From Comamonas avium (GTDB lineage: Bacteria; Pseudomonadota; Gammaproteobacteria; Burkholderiales; Burkholderiaceae_C): a DNA stretch of 64,000 nt. The notes beneath the pieces are model-generated. The model made no database searches and had not been told where the DNA came from. It saw nothing but the letters and a program-made list of their open reading frames with translations. The position numbers and the translations under genes were made by a program. The stretch lies in the NCBI RefSeq assembly GCF_014836675.1, contig NZ_JACSQK010000003.1, positions 244,763 through 308,762 of the forward strand. The letters run 5' to 3'. Below, piece by piece: positions 5,227 through 61,800 of this stretch (positions within the stretch are counted from its first letter, which is position 1; every line of letters starts with the position of its first letter).

Positions 5227-6600
5227 GTGACTTGGTTGCGCAATTCATTGCATTTGCGCTGGGCAATCGCACAGACAGTGGCGGCGGCCGTGGTCATGGT
5301 TGTTGCGGGAGCCATACTTTTCCAAGTCATCCAGTCTTTTTTGATTGCCAGAGACCATGATTTTTTGCGGCAGCAGGCACTGTGGATAGGGGCTAGCCCA
5401 AGGGACGGCGGCTCAAGCGGTCTGCAAGATCGACTGAACACGCTGCAAAGCATGTATCCCGGCATTCGCGTGAGCCTGCAAACCGTTGCTGGCAGTGATT
5501 CCACTGAAATCGAACACACCCAGACAGCGCCTGTTTTTGCCATCACACAAGAAAGCCAGCCCTTCGATGCCATTGACCTGGAGGTCACAACCCAAGGTCA
5601 TGCGGTTTTACAAGTGCGGCTCATGGCTTCTGCACTACCGAGGCAAGAAGCGCTGCATTCACTGGCCCGCATCCTGATACTGGCTGTGTGCATGGGCATA
5701 TTGCTTTCTGCAGTTTTGTCCATTGTGAGTATGGGCTGGAGCAACCGGCGACTCAGACACCTGTCACAGCAGGCCCATGCGGCTGGTCAAAGCGGTCACA
5801 TCTCACTGGCAGGCGTAGATGCCGAACTGCTTGAACTGGTCGAAGCGTTTAACAGCGTGCTCACGCAGCGCGAAGCAGCCTATCGGCAGTCTGAATCGTT
5901 CAGTGCTGATGTTGCCCACGAGCTGCGCTCCCCGCTTGCCACCATGATTGGTGGCGCACAGCTGGCACTGAGCAGGCCGCGCTCCAGCGAAGAGCTCAGA
6001 GACGCTCTGGCCTCTAACCTGGAAGAGTGCGAGCGCCTTAAAAAACTCATCAACGACATGCTGTTTCTTGCGCGAGCAGACCGAGGCGAGCGTGCTCAAA
6101 GTCTGGAGCGAGCAGATCTGAGCATCTTGGCCGATGACATGATCAGCTACTGCGGCGCACTGCTCGATGATGCCGGGCTGCAGGCTGTGCGCATCGGCTG
6201 CGCATCTGCCGTGTGCAATGAAGCGCTCATCAAACGCGCCATGGCCAACTTGCTGTCTAACGCAATCCGGCATGCTCAGGGTGAGCACAACGTTGAATTA
6301 CACCTTGAGGCATTGCCTGGAAAAGTGAGGTTCTGGGTATTCAATGCAGGCCCCGCAATTGCCGACGATGTAGCGAGCCGAATGTTTGACCGATTTTTTC
6401 GCGCCAATGCCTCGCGTTCAGACCATACGGTCCACCATGGGCTGGGGCTTTCGATTGTTCACGCCATAGCGCGCATGCACGGCGGAACCGTATTTGTGCA
6501 CATCCAGGATACGGGCAACGCAATCGGCATAGAGATTCCGAGTGCGCTTGCTTCGCGGCAAGTGCGTGTTCGAGAAGCCGTACACGAAGCTTTGCGCTGA
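5227..6600 (+). CDS. Sensor histidine kinase, partner of the 4501 regulator
   Basis: A 457-residue membrane histidine kinase. One membrane span lies near residues 15-38 and another near 148-170, enclosing a periplasmic sensor region of about 110 residues with no domain I can name. The phospho-acceptor is His231 in 'SADVAHELRSPLATM', followed by an N-box 'ANLLSNAIRHA' and the G-box 'HGLGLSIVHAIARMHGG'. The start is a GTG at 5227; the next residues 'TWLRNSLHLRW' are a usual pre-membrane segment. Its position right after the response regulator makes them a two-component pair, probably QseC/TctE-like. Confidence 0.9.
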   Translation: MTWLRNSLHLRWAIAQTVAAAVVMVVAGAILFQVIQSFLIARDHDFLRQQALWIGASPRDGGSSGLQDRLNTLQSMYPGIRVSLQTVAGSDSTEIEHTQTAPVFAITQESQPFDAIDLEVTTQGHAVLQVRLMASALPRQEALHSLARILILAVCMGILLSAVLSIVSMGWSNRRLRHLSQQAHAAGQSGHISLAGVDAELLELVEAFNSVLTQREAAYRQSESFSADVAHELRSPLATMIGGAQLALSRPRSSEELRDALASNLEECERLKKLINDMLFLARADRGERAQSLERADLSILADDMISYCGALLDDAGLQAVRIGCASAVCNEALIKRAMANLLSNAIRHAQGEHNVELHLEALPGKVRFWVFNAGPAIADDVASRMFDRFFRANASRSDHTVHHGLGLSIVHAIARMHGGTVFVHIQDTGNAIGIEIPSALASRQVRVREAVHEALR

Positions 6601-7374
6601 TCGTGCGCTGGCCTGAGCTTGCTGCATCAATCCGTCTGTGCAAGCTCGCAGCCTGTTGCGCCCCCCGGTTTATGCACCAACGCCCCTGACAGGGGAAATT
6701 TTCCTTTGATTGATGAAAATATCTAAATTCAATAAATATTAATATGGGTCTGTTTTTTTAAATTATCTGAGTCAACTTTATCTATTTTTAGTGCTGATGA
6801 AAAATAAGATAATCAGTAATTGATATTTGGCTATTTTTCTAGTCAAAATCTGTCAATGATTGTGTTTTTCAATGTGAATGTATTTTGTTTTTAAATTTAT
6901 TCGAAGTAAAAAAATTTCAAAGCACAAAATATTGATGTGCAAAACAAGAAGTTTCTTGCCTGCTAACAAGATATTTATTGTTTATTTTCTTTCTGCCGTT
7001 TGTAAAATATTTCCCTCGCTGAAGCCTGTGAGTCAATGGCATATTTTCGCTGGTGCATCAATGCATTGCAGCACCGGATGCCCCACTGGTACTGGCTGCT
7101 TTATGCCTCAAGCATCACTTTGCTGTTGATGGGCAGGGCATGCAACCTGCATATCCAATCGATTGATTGAATTGGGCTGTCCCTTTCAATATCAGTAGTT
7201 GCAAAGCCGTGGCTGGATTTATGTAGCCTGGCTCAGGCTTAATTTTTGCAAATCACCATCTGAAGCTTATTTTTTATCTCTCGCAAATGTCTTGCCTAAT
7301 GAAAAGAGCATGCGCGATAGATTGATGTTTATATGGTTTTATAAATATCGTTTCATGGTCTGAAAGGATTTTTT
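6601..7374. other. AT-rich intergenic tract
   Basis: A 774-bp stretch far richer in A and T than its surroundings, especially 6715-7010. The only open frame (6878-7129, 83 codons) has no ribosome-binding site and no recognisable content, so I do not call a gene. The last 60 bases contain TATA-like words and the AAAGGA ribosome-binding site of the autotransporter. The composition suggests acquired or H-NS/MvaT-type silenced DNA controlling the downstream surface protein; that is inference. Confidence 0.5.
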
Positions 7375-9569
7375 ATGAAAAAACTAAACTTGACCAATCT
7401 GCTTTTACCGCTGCTGGCAGTAACCGCTCATGCACAGGTACATGCCCAGGGGTGGAATGTCATGCAAGATTTGGGTGACCTCACATCTAGCGGCATGGGG
7501 AGTAATGCCAATGCCGTGAGTGCCGATGGCAGCGCCATAGTAGGGCACGTTAGCTACTCCGCCTATGGTATGCACGCTTTTCGCTGGACCAGTGATGGCG
7601 GCATGCAAGACCTGGGTGATTTCACAGCCAATGGTACGGGCTTGAGTGCGGCCAGTGCGGTCAGTGCCAATGGCAGTGTGGTGGTGGGAAACGCTGATTA
7701 CGGCTTCGCTACAAAGACGCATGCTTTTCGCTGGACCAGTGATGGCGGCATGCAAGACCTGGGCGATTTAACAGCCAGCGGCAGGGGTAGGAGTTTTGCC
7801 TATGCGGTCAGCGCCGATGGCCGCGTTGTGGTGGGGCAGGCTGACTACGGCCCTGGCTGGGTGTATCACGCTTTTCGCTGGACCAGTGAGGGGGGCATGC
7901 AGGACCTGGGTGACTTGACGACCACTGGCTCGGAGTGGAGTGCGGCCACTGCGGTCAGTGCTGATGGAAGCGTTGTGGTGGGACAGGCGGCATACGGTTC
8001 CGGTGCAGATGCGCATGCCTTTCGCTGGACCAGCGCTGTGGCATGCAGGACCTGGGTGATTTAACAGCCAGCGGAACGGGGGGCAGTAATGCCAGTGCGG
8101 TCAGTGCCGATGGCAGTGTGGTGGTGGGGCAAGCGGAATACGGCTCTGGCGCAAATTATCACGCGTTTCGCTGGAGCAGTGACGGCGGCATGCAGGACCT
8201 GGGTGACTTCACGGCCAACGGTACGGGCTGGAGTATGGCCAATGCGGTTAGTGCCGATGGCCGCGTTGTGGTGGGGTGGGCTGACTATGGCTCAGGAGTA
8301 AATAGGCACGCTTTTCGCTGGACCATTGAGGGCGGCATACAAGAGCTGGGTGATTTAACAGCCAGTGGCACGGGCTGGAGTGTGGCCAAGGCGGTCAGTG
8401 CCGATGGCAGTGTGGTGGTGGGAGATGCGAGCGATGGCATCGCAGGTCAGCACGCTTTTCGTTGGAGCAGTGATGGCGGCATGCAAGGCTTGGGCGATTT
8501 CACAGCCGATGGCTCGGGCTGGAGTTCGCCCAATGGGGTCAGTGCCGATGGCCGCACTGTGGTGGGTAGTGCGAGCAACGACCAAGGGGTAAATCGTGCC
8601 TTTATCTACCGCACGAGCATGCAAGACTTTAGTAATTTACTGTCTTCGCTGCCAAAGCTTGCGGCAGATAAAGAGCTGGCCGCAGCCCGGCAACAAATGC
8701 GCATGGCTCGGCTGCTGCAAACGCAGTGCGCCACTGGCAAGGCCGGTGTGAGCTGTCTGAAAGTGACGGGCTCTTTTGATGCGGTGGGCGCTGACGCAGG
8801 CATTGGCCACCGTCAGCAGACACAGGGGGTGGTGACGCTGGGCTACGGCTTGAGTGAGCAGTGGACATGGGGTGGCAACCTGCTGCTGGGGCACGCCAGC
8901 TTGCGCCATAGCGCGGTAGACCCTGACAGCACCTATGGCCTTAGCGGCTGGCTGGCCTATAGCCAGTCTGGGCAGGCGGGCAACGGCTGGCAGCTGCAAG
9001 CTTCGGTGGGCTACATCAAGCAAAACAACACCATTACACGGGGACAGGCGCTGAGCAACGTTGAGCTGGTAAGCGGCTCTGCAAACTTAGATGCGCTGGC
9101 TGCCCGCGTGGCGCTGGGCTTTGGCGTGCGCCATGCAAACGGCTGGCTGGTCACGCCAGAAGTGGCTCTGACGCAGCAGCACAGCAAGTTTGCCGCCTAT
9201 GACGAGGCCCATGGCGATTTCCGGGCCTCTTATCAAAAAGCCAGCCTCAAGGCCACGGTGCTGGGGCTGGGTGTGACGGCGCAAAAGGCCGTGGGCAGTA
9301 AGACACAGCTTCGGCTGGCGGCGGGGCTTGAGCAGGACCTGAGCGTTCAGCGCATGAAGTTTGCTGGCACCTCAGATGTGCCAGGGGCCGAGACCTTTAA
9401 TCTGGAAAGTGCTTTGAAGCGCAAAGCGCTGCGCCCATACGTCTCTGCCGGATACGTTTACCACCTGGACGCTGCCAGTGCCGTGGCCGTTGACATTGGC
9501 GCTGAGCGGGATGCGTTTTCCAGCGAGTTCAATATGGGGCTATCGGTGAGCTACAGCAAATTCTTCTGA
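7375..9569 (+). pseudogene. HAF-repeat autotransporter, frameshifted
   Basis: Encodes a secreted autotransporter in two frames: 7375-8064, then a frame open across the break and ending at 9569. A signal peptide ('LLPLLAVTAHAQVHAQ') is followed by eight imperfect repeats of about 48 residues, each starting 'MQDLGDLTASG', with a core 'AVSADGSVVVG' and ending 'HAFRWTSDGG' (HAF repeats). A C-terminal beta-barrel of roughly 270 residues ends in Phe ('SVSYSKFF'), as outer-membrane barrels do. In repeat 4, near 8031-8040, the stretch expected to encode 'TSDGGMQ' is one base short compared with the other copies, shifting the frame. Without the missing base the passenger cannot reach its barrel. Real mutation, phase switching and sequencing error are all possible. 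The 3' end converges on nhaR after 43 bases. Confidence 0.85.
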
Positions 9570-57675: not shown

Positions 57676-58496
57676 CCAGGTCTTTCGAGGGAGGGAGGGA
57701 GGGGACAAAGGTTGAGTTGACCCAAAATACGCAATGTAAACACCGTAGAGAGGAGAGGCTGCGGTCGCTTGGGCAGTTCAACCCAGCAGCTAGGCCGGAT
57801 CAGAGGGAGGCTGAGGCCAGCTGCATTTGTGCAGCTGCATAGCTGCAAAATAAACCTAATCAGAGGTGGCTTGCTTGCGTGTCAGTACAGGTGCTTTGAG
57901 TTTTAGAATTCTGCGCATTGCGCCCTCCTGCACTGTGCGACAGGTGCGTTATCGCAGGCTTTGAGATGAATTTCAGGGTGATAGGCATCTCCCCAAAAGA
58001 CGTTGCCGCGCGTGCCCAATGCCTTGCTATGCGAAGAGGTGTGAATGCCAAGGCGGCACACCGTGAATTTATCTCTGTGCTTTGGCAACCCTGATCGGTG
58101 TTGGTTATGGCCGGTGCTTCGCAACATGCCGGCTGGAATTTCGTAGTGCTGGGGTAGCTCAGCCACATTTCGCTTTGCGTGCCACTTTGGGTGCGGCCTT
58201 TGCTGAGTATTAGCAGTAAATCCACCATGCGTTCGCAAGGTAAAACCGCCACTGATTCGCATCGAAAATCCACCACCTCATCGCGCTGTGGCATGGAGGC
58301 CTTTTAACGCTGACGTAGCCGATAGCTAGCTAGCCCTGCACTGATTTTCCTGCGATGGCTGCTCTCGGCCACAAGCCGTCGCTCGCTAATGTCTGCTTTT
58401 GGGGAGGTCGTCTACGGAGTCGTGCGGGACGAGGTGCTTTCCCTATCCGCTAGCAGTCGCTGAGAACCTGAGGGCGCTCCTGGCAAAAGGTTACGA
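57676..58496. other. Gene-poor flank with outward-facing repeat array (left)
   Basis: About 820 bp without a recognised gene. On the minus strand at 58200-58275 are two or three related words spaced about 22-25 bases, of the form GGTGGATTTTCGATGCGAA, GTGGCGGTTTTACCTTGCGAA and TGGTGGATTTACTGC. Similar words on the plus strand at 61693-61785 make an inverted pair around the STAND gene. A further word TTGCTATGCGAA at 58024-58035 recurs exactly at 61751-61762. A 20-codon minus-strand frame at 57918-57856 ('MRRILKLKAPVLTRKQATSD') has AGGAGG five bases upstream and may be a small or residual gene. I read this as a decayed transposon end, possibly IS21-like. Confidence 0.45.
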
Positions 58497-61364
58497 TTGA
58501 CTGAAGAACATGCCGAGCCGGTATGCCATCTAACAAAATCTGGCCTCCAAATGCAATCTGAATCCATCAAGAAGCGCATCATCAAGAGTCTCATTGATGA
58601 AATCGTCTCCATCGACGCAACATCTCTCGAGCTGTTTGGGCACAGACTTCTCGAGCTCATTGAAAAAAAGAAACTGATTCACCATGGGTTAAATAAAGAC
58701 CATCGCCCAGTGGGTTACACCGTCGACACTTTTTCTCAAAGCAGCGATGTGATTGGTGAATACAGTGCAGAGAAGACCTACTTTGTTAATGCCAGCAAGG
58801 AATACGAGACACCCTGCTTCCCAAAGGTCGCGAATGATATTGATCATGCGCTGTCGCACGGGAATCCCAAAAAGATCTACCTCATAGCGAGTCAAGAGGA
58901 GAAGGAGTCCTTCAGAGCAAAATTTCTAAAGAGCGACCATGGTCAGAAGTACGCTAATTTGGTTGAAATCCTTGATGCGCGCGAATTGGCAAAGCGCATC
59001 TACGAGTTCTCTGTAGCAAATCCTAGTGACGGAGCCTTCTTCGGAGATTTCTTCCCCGACTTTGCTAAGAATCTGGAAAATTACGAGTATTACGGGCGCA
59101 TCCCGAGTCGATGCGAGAACCACCAATCCGACGATTTGGTACTGAGCGCTGTGCAGAAGCAGTTCGAGTCTGGAACAGGTGTTTGCGTGCTACATGGACT
59201 AAGCGGCTCGGGTAAGACGCAAGCAGCTATCGACTACGTTCGACAAAACGTGGATCGAATTGGAAACTACATCTGGATCTATGGTGATGATTTTAAAAAG
59301 GGCACCACGCTTAGCTCAATAAAACGCTCGCGCGGTGGCACTCCATTTAACGTTGCTGGAGCTTTCAACTCCTGCCCCACGTTGCTGGTTATCGATAACC
59401 TAGATTGGGCCGTCGATGAGTCTACATTTGAGGAGCTGAAGCTAGGGCTGGCCGCTGGAGGTCTTATCCTTGTGACGTCGACATTGAATTTGCCCGGGCA
59501 AAGCTATTACGTCGCCACACCGTCTCTCTCATTTGAGACTGCGGTCAAAGTCTTGGGTGAGGACATTAGCAAGCTCAGCGAGCTCGCACGTTGCTATGTC
59601 GAGGCGTGCAGGTTTTCGCCGCTGATCCTCGCAACTACGCGGAGTATTTGCAAGGTGAATGGCATAGACAAGGAGTCCTTCTACAAAGAAGTTCTCGAGA
59701 AGCCAGATCTGCTGTCAAGCCAAGATGGAACATCGATCTTGCGTGAAGTTCTCAGCCGGCTAGATACTCACTCGCAGGAAGCACTTGTCATGATTGCCAA
59801 CTCCACGTCAGGAACGCATGACGCGCGTTTTTTGGGGGCCTTTATCACACAGACGGCATCTATCAACCTTCAACGTCTTTCAATTCTTCAATCAGCAACG
59901 ACACCAGGTCTCCTGAAAGTCCATGATTTGATCTGTGACGCCGTGAGAACTACTCCAGACGCTCAACCTGTCTCTGATGCTATCGAGAGGTTTGTCGCCG
60001 AGGGTTCCGGCGAAATGCTGACTAGTGCAATTCGCCAGATCCACCTGTGTGAAAAGCAATTGATGGCAACCCACCGTGCGCGCAGCACTAGGCAGCCAGA
60101 TTGGCTGATGTATGCCTTGATGCAGGCCGGCGGTGATGCACGTTCAGAGATCGCGGCAAAGCTTCACGGGTTGAAAATCACGGGGAAATGTTCACTGGCA
60201 GAAGTCCTCTGCATCGTAGATGCGAAGGAAGATTTCGCATACACCATTGCTGATAACGTAGCGCGCGAAGCCTACTACAAACAGTGCGCTGACGAATATC
60301 AGTCTGTCATCGACTCTGGAGTTCGTGATGAACTTAAAGTCGAACTACTTCATCATCGCGGTAAAGCTCTGCGTCGCTCGGGATCGGCTGCAGAGGCACT
60401 CAGTTCATTCCAAGAGATTTTGGCTTATCGGTCGGAGTGGCACGCTGCTCATGGCCAAATTGCGCATCTGGGGACTCAAAAAGAAGCCAACGACCAAATG
60501 AAGGCGGCCGGGGAGGCTTCAATGATTTGGCTGGTTGAACGAATTCTCAGCGGTTACTCAGCAGTACCACTTCGTGTCTCACTCGCTGCGATAGCCCGCC
60601 TGCGTTCTTATCCCAAAGTTATTTCCGCTATATCGGCCGAACCTGAAAAGGTCAAACAGCTCTCAGATGTGATTGCAATTGCGGCGCTGGATGGCCTAGA
60701 TCAGTTCTACGAGGCATTCCTCGCGTTCACTTCGAAGTTCGGTTATGAGCATATCGACGTCACCATTGCACTGGCAGGTGCTATGCCAGAACTGCTTACG
60801 GTGCCCCCTGAGTCTATTGACACTAAGCAATGGACGAGCGCGTGTGAGGCTCTTTCAAACACTGCGCAGTCAGCCAAGAGCGTGGGGAAGGCTAAACTGG
60901 CGAATCGACTGATTGCGTCAGCAACGATCTTTGCACAAGCACTGGTCAACGCGGGAGAATTGAAACCATTCTCTGTGCGAGCGGTCATGAAGGCATTCCT
61001 CGCTGCAGACATGCCAGATAGAGCCCTTGACATCTGCGAACAGTTCGCGCCAAAGACGAAGGATCACTGGCTGCTCTATCGCAAGAGTCAGGCTTTGTTG
61101 GAACTGGGTAATACGCAGCCGGCCTTGGATGTCGCCCTCGAGGCACTCAAGGTGGCCAAGCAGGATAGCAAAGCTGAAGACCGAATCGCAAGCTATTACG
61201 AACTCCTAAGTAAATGTGCCGAGGCGATTCCTGATATTTCGACAGCTATTGCATATTGCCAAGATGCCACCAGATCGGGCGCAGGTGGTAAGTACATGCA
61301 GCAGCTTAAAGAGCGGCTCTCAAGGCTCAAAGCGGCTGCGGCACAAGTTCAGCCGGGAACATGA
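58497..61364 (+). CDS. STAND/NLR-like NTPase with putative nuclease N-terminus and TPR-like C-terminus
   Basis: A 955-residue cytoplasmic protein. Residues about 20-160 hold 'ATSLELFGHRLLELIEKK' and a patch with Asp77, Glu88 and Glu92-Lys93 ('SSDVIGEYSAEKTYF') that recalls PD-(D/E)xK or Mrr-like nucleases, not in perfect form. Then come an NB-ARC-like P-loop GLSGSGKT (234-241), Walker B 'TLLVIDNLDW' (Asp300), 'LILVTSTL' at the sensor position and 'LKVHDLICDAVR' with a VHD (MHD-like) triplet at 475-477. Residues beyond 530 contain TPR-like helices. This is the plan of bacterial NLR-type immune sensors such as Avs. TTG at 58497 has AAAGG upstream; ATG 58551 is an alternative. It stands alone between gene-poor flanks. 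The exact family and function are inferred. Confidence 0.75.
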   Translation: MTEEHAEPVCHLTKSGLQMQSESIKKRIIKSLIDEIVSIDATSLELFGHRLLELIEKKKLIHHGLNKDHRPVGYTVDTFSQSSDVIGEYSAEKTYFVNASKEYETPCFPKVANDIDHALSHGNPKKIYLIASQEEKESFRAKFLKSDHGQKYANLVEILDARELAKRIYEFSVANPSDGAFFGDFFPDFAKNLENYEYYGRIPSRCENHQSDDLVLSAVQKQFESGTGVCVLHGLSGSGKTQAAIDYVRQNVDRIGNYIWIYGDDFKKGTTLSSIKRSRGGTPFNVAGAFNSCPTLLVIDNLDWAVDESTFEELKLGLAAGGLILVTSTLNLPGQSYYVATPSLSFETAVKVLGEDISKLSELARCYVEACRFSPLILATTRSICKVNGIDKESFYKEVLEKPDLLSSQDGTSILREVLSRLDTHSQEALVMIANSTSGTHDARFLGAFITQTASINLQRLSILQSATTPGLLKVHDLICDAVRTTPDAQPVSDAIERFVAEGSGEMLTSAIRQIHLCEKQLMATHRARSTRQPDWLMYALMQAGGDARSEIAAKLHGLKITGKCSLAEVLCIVDAKEDFAYTIADNVAREAYYKQCADEYQSVIDSGVRDELKVELLHHRGKALRRSGSAAEALSSFQEILAYRSEWHAAHGQIAHLGTQKEANDQMKAAGEASMIWLVERILSGYSAVPLRVSLAAIARLRSYPKVISAISAEPEKVKQLSDVIAIAALDGLDQFYEAFLAFTSKFGYEHIDVTIALAGAMPELLTVPPESIDTKQWTSACEALSNTAQSAKSVGKAKLANRLIASATIFAQALVNAGELKPFSVRAVMKAFLAADMPDRALDICEQFAPKTKDHWLLYRKSQALLELGNTQPALDVALEALKVAKQDSKAEDRIASYYELLSKCAEAIPDISTAIAYCQDATRSGAGGKYMQQLKERLSRLKAAAAQVQPGT

Positions 61365-61689
61365 TTGGATAATGGGCTGCAGCCTGTTTCAAAGACGTCT
61401 GAGTTGAGGTTGAAGATAAACCCGTCAACAACCCTGCTGCCATGTATAGGTAGTAGTGAGATCGAGGACGGGCATGCGCTCTAAAACTGGTTGGCGACAA
61501 CTCATATGTCGTGAAATCTGCAATGCCTGTAATTCAGCAGATGAGTACTGTTGATCGGGTGCGTCCCGAGCGACCGGTCTGCGGCGGGGTGCTCAAGCCC
61601 TTCGATGTTCGCTACGGGTCGCTTTGCGACATTGCGCCACTACTACTAGCTTTGACATGCTAGAAAAGTTCTACGTGGCTTCATCGCAC

Positions 61690-61800
61690 TAAAAGTGGCG
61701 ATCTTGAATGCAAGTCGCTGCTAGGTTTGGCATGCGAAGCCGTGGAGGTTTTGCTATGCGAACGCTTGGCGGATTTCATGCGAATACCCACTTTGCATTG
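61690..61800. repeat. Outward-facing repeat array (right) in a gene-poor flank
   Basis: Four related words follow at about 22-25 base spacing: GTGGCGATCTTGAATGCAAG, a GGTTTGGCATGCGAAGCC word, GTGGAGGTTTTGCTATGCGA and TTGGCGGATTTCATGCGAAT. They mirror the minus-strand words at 58200-58275. Just beyond, a minus-strand ATG at 61834 with GGAGG five bases upstream opens a 26-codon frame that closes at 61754 inside the array, perhaps the cut-off start of a transposase gene. The rest of 61365-62330 holds no recognised gene. Confidence 0.5.

Follow-up and report, generated by a model that had tools for sequence, protein, structure and literature searches.

A solitary STAND ATPase gene of Comamonas avium with a predicted PD-(D/E)xK effector domain, a candidate Avs-like anti-phage receptor

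Does a long gene that stands alone in the genome of Comamonas avium encode an anti-phage receptor, and if so, is it of a new kind? The gene lies on the forward strand of a stretch of 64,000 nucleotides (assembly GCF_014836675.1, contig NZ_JACSQK010000003.1, positions 244,763 to 308,762), which is called the window here. Within it, positions 58497-61364 form one open reading frame (ORF) of 955 codons without a stop. A first-pass annotation, made from the letters alone, had read the product as a STAND protein with a putative nuclease effector and had proposed a new one-gene defence system. Our analysis supports this interpretation as a whole. Quite probably, the gene encodes a single-gene, NLR/Avs-like (NLR, nucleotide-binding leucine-rich repeat) anti-phage receptor with a nuclease effector that would cut DNA and thereby act abortively.

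The gene had been called from TTG 58497, but translation probably starts at ATG 58551, giving a protein of 937 amino acids, because the longest ORF of the closest relative (L014, Pseudomonas kitaguniensis, 83% identical) begins at the homologous ATG and the alignment with the copy on an Enterobacter plasmid (L002) begins at residue 21 of the longer reading. Residue numbers given here are counted from ATG 58551 and are thus lower by 18 than those of the first-pass annotation. The DNA identity to L014 (77.8%) is limited to positions 58505-61329, which is the gene plus 46 bases 5' of it. Differences between the two genes fall mainly on the third codon position (127/80/411 for positions 1/2/3), with rates of non-synonymous (dN) and synonymous (dS) substitution of 0.108 and 1.32 and a dN/dS of about 0.08, a rough ratio at such a high dS. 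Judged from this comparison, the ORF is a real gene under purifying selection.

Close relatives were found at seven loci on genome contigs (L011-L017, 41-83% identity in the best segment, L015 without the first 182 residues), on the Enterobacter plasmid (L002, 43%) and at L049, with a truncated copy at L050; a distant group (L003-L007, 20-22% identity) has the same domain order and the same N-terminal motif. The family records are named Magnetococcales, Pseudomonas, Sinorhizobium, Colwellia, Uliginosibacterium and Enterobacter. With L014 set aside, identity to the window protein is 45-55% in the effector and 38-41% in the last quarter. Motif conservation was counted over 15 sequences, 14 of them with the nuclease domain; H6 and H8 (which duplicate H5 and H7 in query range, identity and score), L048 (equal to L013), the truncated L050 and the weak fragments from the class and phylum samples described below were left out.

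STAND ATPases are recognised by a P-loop, a Walker B motif, a GxP motif and an HD/MHD-like motif that lie together in a single ATPase/winged-helix unit with helical repeats after it, and the window protein belongs to this class. The P-loop lysine, the Walker B aspartate and the VHD triplet in the place of MHD, all pointed out in the first-pass annotation, are conserved in the family (Table 1), with (V/I/L)H(D/E) as consensus at the MHD position, and the TPR-like helices that it had described fill about residues 490-937. The predicted structure agrees with this plan: a Foldseek search with the full-length model returned a STAND-TPR protein first (6mfv, E 5e-6, 12% identity), Apaf-1 third (7.4e-5) and SAMD9 fifth, with IFT-A chains in between. 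Avs3 ranked 24th (E 5e-4), and most other rows were TPR or helical-repeat proteins.

The second part of the question concerns the N-terminus, for which a nuclease-like character had been suspected. An AlphaFold2 (AF2) model of residues 1-190, built from seven sequences, reached a predicted local distance difference test score (pLDDT) of 84.1 and a predicted template modelling score (pTM) of 0.82, and resembles PD-(D/E)xK nucleases including the nuclease region of Avs4. In the structural re-alignment (VIA), the best matches were MspJI (Z 9.3, root-mean-square deviation 3.7 over 141 residues), AspBHI (Z 8.9, 3.9 over 140 residues) and residues 2-191 of portal-bound Avs4 (Z 8.4, 5.6 over 149 residues). 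Shedu (Z 7.4), EcoT38I (7.1) and FokI (6.5) were also found, and the top nine rows were all nuclease entries (Z 9.3-6.2). The core fold of the effector is therefore predicted to be that of the PD-(D/E)xK nuclease superfamily. PDB sequence searches gave nothing useful for the whole protein or the N-terminal profile; the full profile retrieved weak matches only, mostly TPR proteins, and MspJI and AspBHI were not recovered by sequence-profile search of the PDB.

Six polar residues (E27, D59, E70, K92, D96 and H99) are invariant in the alignment of the nuclease-bearing sequences and are kept down to about 20% identity. The aspartate and the (D/E)xK element of adjacent strands may be represented by the invariant D59 and E70, whereas the x-K is x-S/N: residue 72 is serine in 13 of 14 sequences and asparagine in L013, so that the canonical lysine position is occupied by Ser/Asn across the nuclease-bearing relatives. 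The next helix contains the invariant K92, and since K92, D96 and H99 stand at i, i+4 and i+7 of helix 91-101, they share one helix face. In this alignment K92 may stand in for the motif lysine. The first-pass annotation had listed D77, E88 and E92-K93 as the N-terminal patch; D77 and E88 (D59 and E70) proved right, but E92-K93 (E74-K75) is ruled out as a catalytic pair, position 75 being lysine in only 8 of 14 sequences, and E27, K92, D96 and H99 were absent from its list. It had also considered that the effector type might be new. By predicted fold the effector is instead an unusual PD-(D/E)xK domain, with its lysine possibly moved to a helix (K92), and not a new effector type.

One relative lacks this domain altogether. 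L015, from a metagenome-assembled genome of Colwellia, has residues 183-931 in common with the window protein, and its nuclease is replaced by a hydrophobic N-terminus (19-residue Kyte-Doolittle means up to 2.07), which probably inserts into the membrane. The alignment thus points to an exchange of effectors, i.e. to a modular effector.

A comparison of the homologues' neighbourhoods, which the first-pass annotation had proposed, showed that several of them lie in defence islands. Chosen neighbours of the homologues were scanned with PADLOC. The gene in L014 directly follows HamA (8e-270) and HamB (5e-251) of the Hachiman system and has an integrase downstream, and in L017 GajB (1.5e-240) and GajA (5e-269) of Gabija follow directly downstream, with PDC-S15 upstream. 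Within 5 kb of the L002 gene are PDC-S20 (1e-160), a Tmn-like gene (2e-48), AbiH and Mrr_cat. L013 contains a type I methyltransferase (HsdM), the STAND gene, HsdS, DarT, DarG and HsdR in one run, in which the STAND gene overlaps hsdM and hsdS by 4 bases each; L049 repeats this order and L050 is a truncated version of it (neighbours named from ORF starts). Among the distant relatives, L007 adjoins GajA/GajB of Gabija and L003 lies near a pPIWI-associated nuclease. Named defence genes were present in four of seven informative close contexts, with the restriction-modification (R-M) embedded copies taken once and the window and L011 (contig too short) excluded, while 0/10 chosen other window proteins matched PADLOC at 1e-5. 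Because relatives are often located in or beside known anti-phage systems, the protein probably represents a new family of phage sensors that bring about the death of infected cells through DNA cleavage. The proposed one-gene organisation applies to the window, where no partner-sized ORF is found in the interval bounded by the EAL and DUF11 genes (other ORFs of at least 80 amino acids have only 82-144), but in three other genomes the gene belongs to a type I R-M operon.

How does the protein relate to known systems? According to PMC12931631, Avs proteins are tripartite, and Avs1-4, whose effectors are nucleases, recognise terminase, portal or Ksap1. The effector-STAND-sensor plan of Avs1-5 is found in the window protein, which like Avs1-4 has an N-terminal nuclease-fold domain, a central STAND ATPase and a C-terminal helical-repeat region as putative sensor. 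However, it is much shorter (937 residues versus chains of 1534 for Avs4 and 2004 for Avs3) and differs from Avs4 by its E-x-S plus helix lysine. The search with Avs and NB-ARC profiles that had been suggested gave no match for the window protein: there was none to the PADLOC Avs profile at E up to 1, and the Pfam NB-ARC model, run against the own genome, found nothing and hence does not reach this protein, L003 and L007 being matched below its cut-off. Ten relatives (L006, L011, L016 and L049 not among them) compared with the PADLOC Avs profiles at E up to 0.1 yielded only L007 versus Avs4 (E 0.028); Avs4 is the sole Avs model appearing by name in the output of the library, which presumably also holds the others. 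The generic PADLOC TPR model matches L017 (4e-7) and L013 (1e-3). All Pfam matches of the window protein were below their cut-offs, as were those to NCBIfam, where FxSxx_TPR was best (7e-7, 28 of 300 bits). Judged by sequence profile, the protein is not a member of Avs1-5.

The 6mfv protein is likewise a STAND ATPase with a TPR arm, and we know of no nuclease domain in that entry. Apaf-1 and other NB-ARC proteins have an NB-ARC-like ATPase in common with the window family, where a GxP-like motif is present and (V/I/L)H(D/E) substitutes for MHD; compared to Apaf-1, a nuclease-fold domain takes the place of the CARD, and helical repeats that of the WD40 domain. The modification-dependent restriction nucleases MspJI and AspBHI, nearest in fold to the effector, have their catalytic lysine placed differently. 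On present sequence comparisons the most fitting description is that of a new STAND family of Avs-like type, whose gene stands alone in the window. A 'new anti-phage system' is unproven; what we describe is new as a sequence family but of a kind already known, and among the papers listed in literature searches no title or opening of an abstract describes it. It adds to the Avs-like proteins a family that PADLOC-DB 2.0.0 (2023) did not name in the 11 members scanned and that is far shorter than Avs4 and Avs3. It is a compact single-gene test case for phage sensing by STAND receptors, with clean mutational predictions at K222, VHD and E27/D59/E70/K92 and with the effector swap in L015 and the R-M-embedded copies as natural comparisons.

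In the mechanism we propose, the winged-helix/VHD region together with the TPR-like arm would keep the resting NB-ARC-like ATPase in the ADP-bound state. Binding of a phage (or other invader) protein to the C-terminal arm would permit nucleotide exchange, which would drive oligomerisation and bring the N-terminal PD-(D/E)xK-fold domains together, so that DNA might be cut and the infection aborted. Domain order, motif conservation and the nuclease fold are supported by sequence, alignment and predicted structure, as are the effector swap in one relative, the defence-island company, the purifying selection and the signs of mobility; ATP switching, oligomerisation, DNA as target, the trigger, nuclease activity and phage protection are steps that we infer. 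Several observations weigh against the proposal, and the case is built on sequence and models. The full-length model has a pLDDT of 80 and a pTM of only 0.53, and its structural re-alignment contained no named STAND entry among the 50 matches listed, mostly TPR or helical-repeat proteins, so the ATPase assignment rests on the motifs and Foldseek; this absence excludes nothing. The effector Z values of 8-9 are close to the common background of 7-8 stated for the tool, and Foldseek with the effector alone was weak (best E 0.019, none at or below 0.001). With Ser/Asn at the position of the catalytic lysine, the domain might have no activity, or serve for binding instead of cleavage. In addition, no defence gene can be recognised next to the window copy, no named system accompanies L016 (MscS and AcrB on one side, an HTH-M78 protein on the other), the neighbours of L012 are only HipA and IS66 (Pfam only), and 0/4 scanned neighbours of L015 match PADLOC.

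The Ser/Asn substitution also leads to the alternative that the protein is a regulator or signalling protein in which a catalytically dead, DNA-binding PD-(D/E)xK fold controls genes of the host or of a mobile element, and many bacterial STAND-TPR proteins do act as regulators. We regard this as very improbable, since a dead fold would hardly need six polar residues (the acidic E27, D59 and E70 and a lysine among them) in 14/14 sequences, and the effector swap and defence company speak against it as well. If the domain is active, it might be an RNase or a nickase with the same trigger and another target than double-stranded DNA. The fold does not give the substrate, and the nickase Nt.BspD6I and Can2 are among the fold matches; however, the top matches MspJI, AspBHI and Avs4 are DNA nucleases, and such a target seems unlikely to us. 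PMC12931631 reports that the nucleases of Avs1-4 act on both phage and host genomes. The R-M-embedded copies suggest yet another role, that of a guard which, instead of a structural phage protein, senses either phage anti-restriction proteins or damage to a type I R-M complex, and kills the cell when restriction is blocked. In three genomes from two families (L013, G479 and, truncated, G598) the gene does have hsdM on one side and hsdS on the other, with the short overlaps to both genes in L013; on the other hand, no type I R-M gene is present among the neighbours read or scanned (not every one) of the window copy, L002, L014 and L017, and we consider this guard role improbable. An Avs-like receptor with a DNA-cutting effector is the reading we prefer.

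Table 1. Positions in the window of the STAND gene, its domains and motifs, and the flanking sequences (residues counted from ATG 58551)
Feature	Position	Strand	Remarks
STAND ATPase gene	58551..61364	+	937 aa from likely ATG (first-pass: TTG 58497, 955 aa)
Effector domain, residues 1-182, predicted PD-(D/E)xK nuclease fold	58551..59096	+	AF2 model, structure matches
E27, acidic residue in helix 23-38	58629..58631	+	14/14
D59 (first-pass D77), putative metal ligand	58725..58727	+	14/14
E70-Y-S72 (first-pass E88), E-x-S replacing (D/E)-x-K	58758..58766	+	strand 67-72; E70 14/14
K92, D96, H99, helix 91-101	58824..58847	+	14/14 each; K92 proposed as moved catalytic lysine
Walker A GLSGSGKT (K222, first-pass Lys240)	59196..59219	+	GK[T/S] 15/15
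RGG motif of the ATPase, 261-263	59331..59339	+	RGG 13/15, RAG in L003 and L007
Walker B LLVIDN (D282, first-pass Asp300)	59382..59399	+	D 15/15
GxP/GLPL-like motif RFSPLIL, 354-360	59610..59630	+	PLxL 15/15; GHPL in five distant sequences
VHD, 457-459, MHD-like	59919..59927	+	H458 15/15, D459 14/15 (E in L016)
TPR-like helical C-terminal half, residues 490-937, putative sensor	60018..61361	+	
Left flank	58196..58376	+	homologous to sequence after a GInt-like recombinase operon of Cupriavidus; 74.5-74.7% over 181 bp, two records
Right flank	61611..61791	-	imperfect inverted partner of left flank (72 nt at 75%)

The family is rare. In a sample of relatives, the gene was present in one of 100 genomes, the own one. 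The class sample gave matches in 3/369 genomes (the own and two weak fragments) and the phylum sample in 11/398, comprising four family members (own, G555, G479 and the truncated G598) and seven weak TPR or P-loop fragments. G555 is L013 (100% over 19,000 bases), G479 is L049 and G598 is L050; G479 and G598 belong to one taxonomic family and G555 to another. Phage records had no match to the gene, none of the 64 and 36 pattern stretches found in viral contigs was a relative, complete E. coli genomes had no DNA match to the Enterobacter copy, and the initial search of the genome contigs with a single protein found nothing.

The gene has been horizontally acquired; its GC content is 50.9% as compared to 56.9% for the window. 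In Cupriavidus sp. EM10, the homologue of the left flank directly follows an operon of four overlapping recombinase genes, and the right flank matches a sequence 24 kb further on (71.7% over 92%), with phosphonate/urease genes as cargo; a full-length match in the other Cupriavidus record was seen for the left flank only. Two of the operon's proteins match Phage_integrase above the cut-off, a third is below it and the fourth has no match. GInt islands, with GinA-D, are present in Betaproteobacteria according to PMC10214605. The Cupriavidus arrangement resembles such islands, and by this analogy the GInt name may apply, although the left-flank homologue sits inside, after the recombinase operon, and not at the operon's outer end. 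A tblastn search of the window with the four Cupriavidus proteins (E up to 1) did not find a ginABCD-like operon; what the two have in common is the bounding sequences alone. The window gene thus looks like a one-gene cassette without recombinase. Among 53 genomes of the genus, the right flank occurs in seven and the left in two, the own genome included in both (E 1e-5). A clean empty site was not found: in G012 and G020 the upstream kinase gene is conserved (84%), but the sequence beyond it differs, with MFS, LysR and transposase-like ORFs (by eye).

There is a small chance that all of these features belong together, i.e. that this is an unclassified STAND family whose nuclease has the invariant K92-D96-H99 helix face in exchange for the lost canonical lysine, which is passed on as a single-gene cassette flanked by GInt-associated inverted sequences, and which in some genomes serves from within a type I R-M operon as a second line of defence. 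If true, the R-M-embedded copies would fire when restriction fails.

Flank sequence was also seen elsewhere. A second inverted pair in the own genome (C11:441830-441993 and 444543-444669; L032 1031-1194 and 3744-3870) surrounds TonB-like, GNAT-like and IS30 transposase-like ORFs (named by eye). In a congener (L034 1378-1480), flank sequence directly precedes a TIR-domain gene at 1591-2061 (TIR_2, 2.7e-13), with a likely Xre-RES pair (by eye) further on. Left of the cassette, window positions 57762-57974 are 67.7% identical to part of a Comamonas testosteroni plasmid that is annotated as IS3-family transposase. Congeners have similar copies, and the sequence is probably a decayed insertion sequence.

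Some neighbours of the relatives deserve mention on their own. Upstream of the R-M/STAND/DarTG operon of L013, near a phage-tail gene, positions 6412-7697 contain a helix-turn-helix-like ORF (by eye) and a reverse-transcriptase gene (RVT_1, 8e-12), possibly a retron or a defence reverse transcriptase. A 1054-residue protein near the Gabija genes of L017 (18482-21646), with methyltransferase-like, AAA and TPR matches and no PADLOC match, is possibly another unclassified STAND-like protein. On three plasmids (L004 3753-8568, L005 3861-8679, L006 3626-8550), a divergent radical SAM gene and a thymidylate-kinase gene, the latter matching PADLOC PDC-M51B (1.6e-10 and 4e-12 in the two scanned), are joined by a third gene, which encodes a distantly related NB-ARC-TPR protein (20-21% identity) in which the nuclease motif recurs. 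PDC-M51 is a PADLOC candidate made up of a radical SAM and kinase cassette, whereas the window ORF list has neither gene adjoining the STAND gene; on the plasmids, the three genes might form a defence system that combines nucleotide chemistry with a STAND protein.

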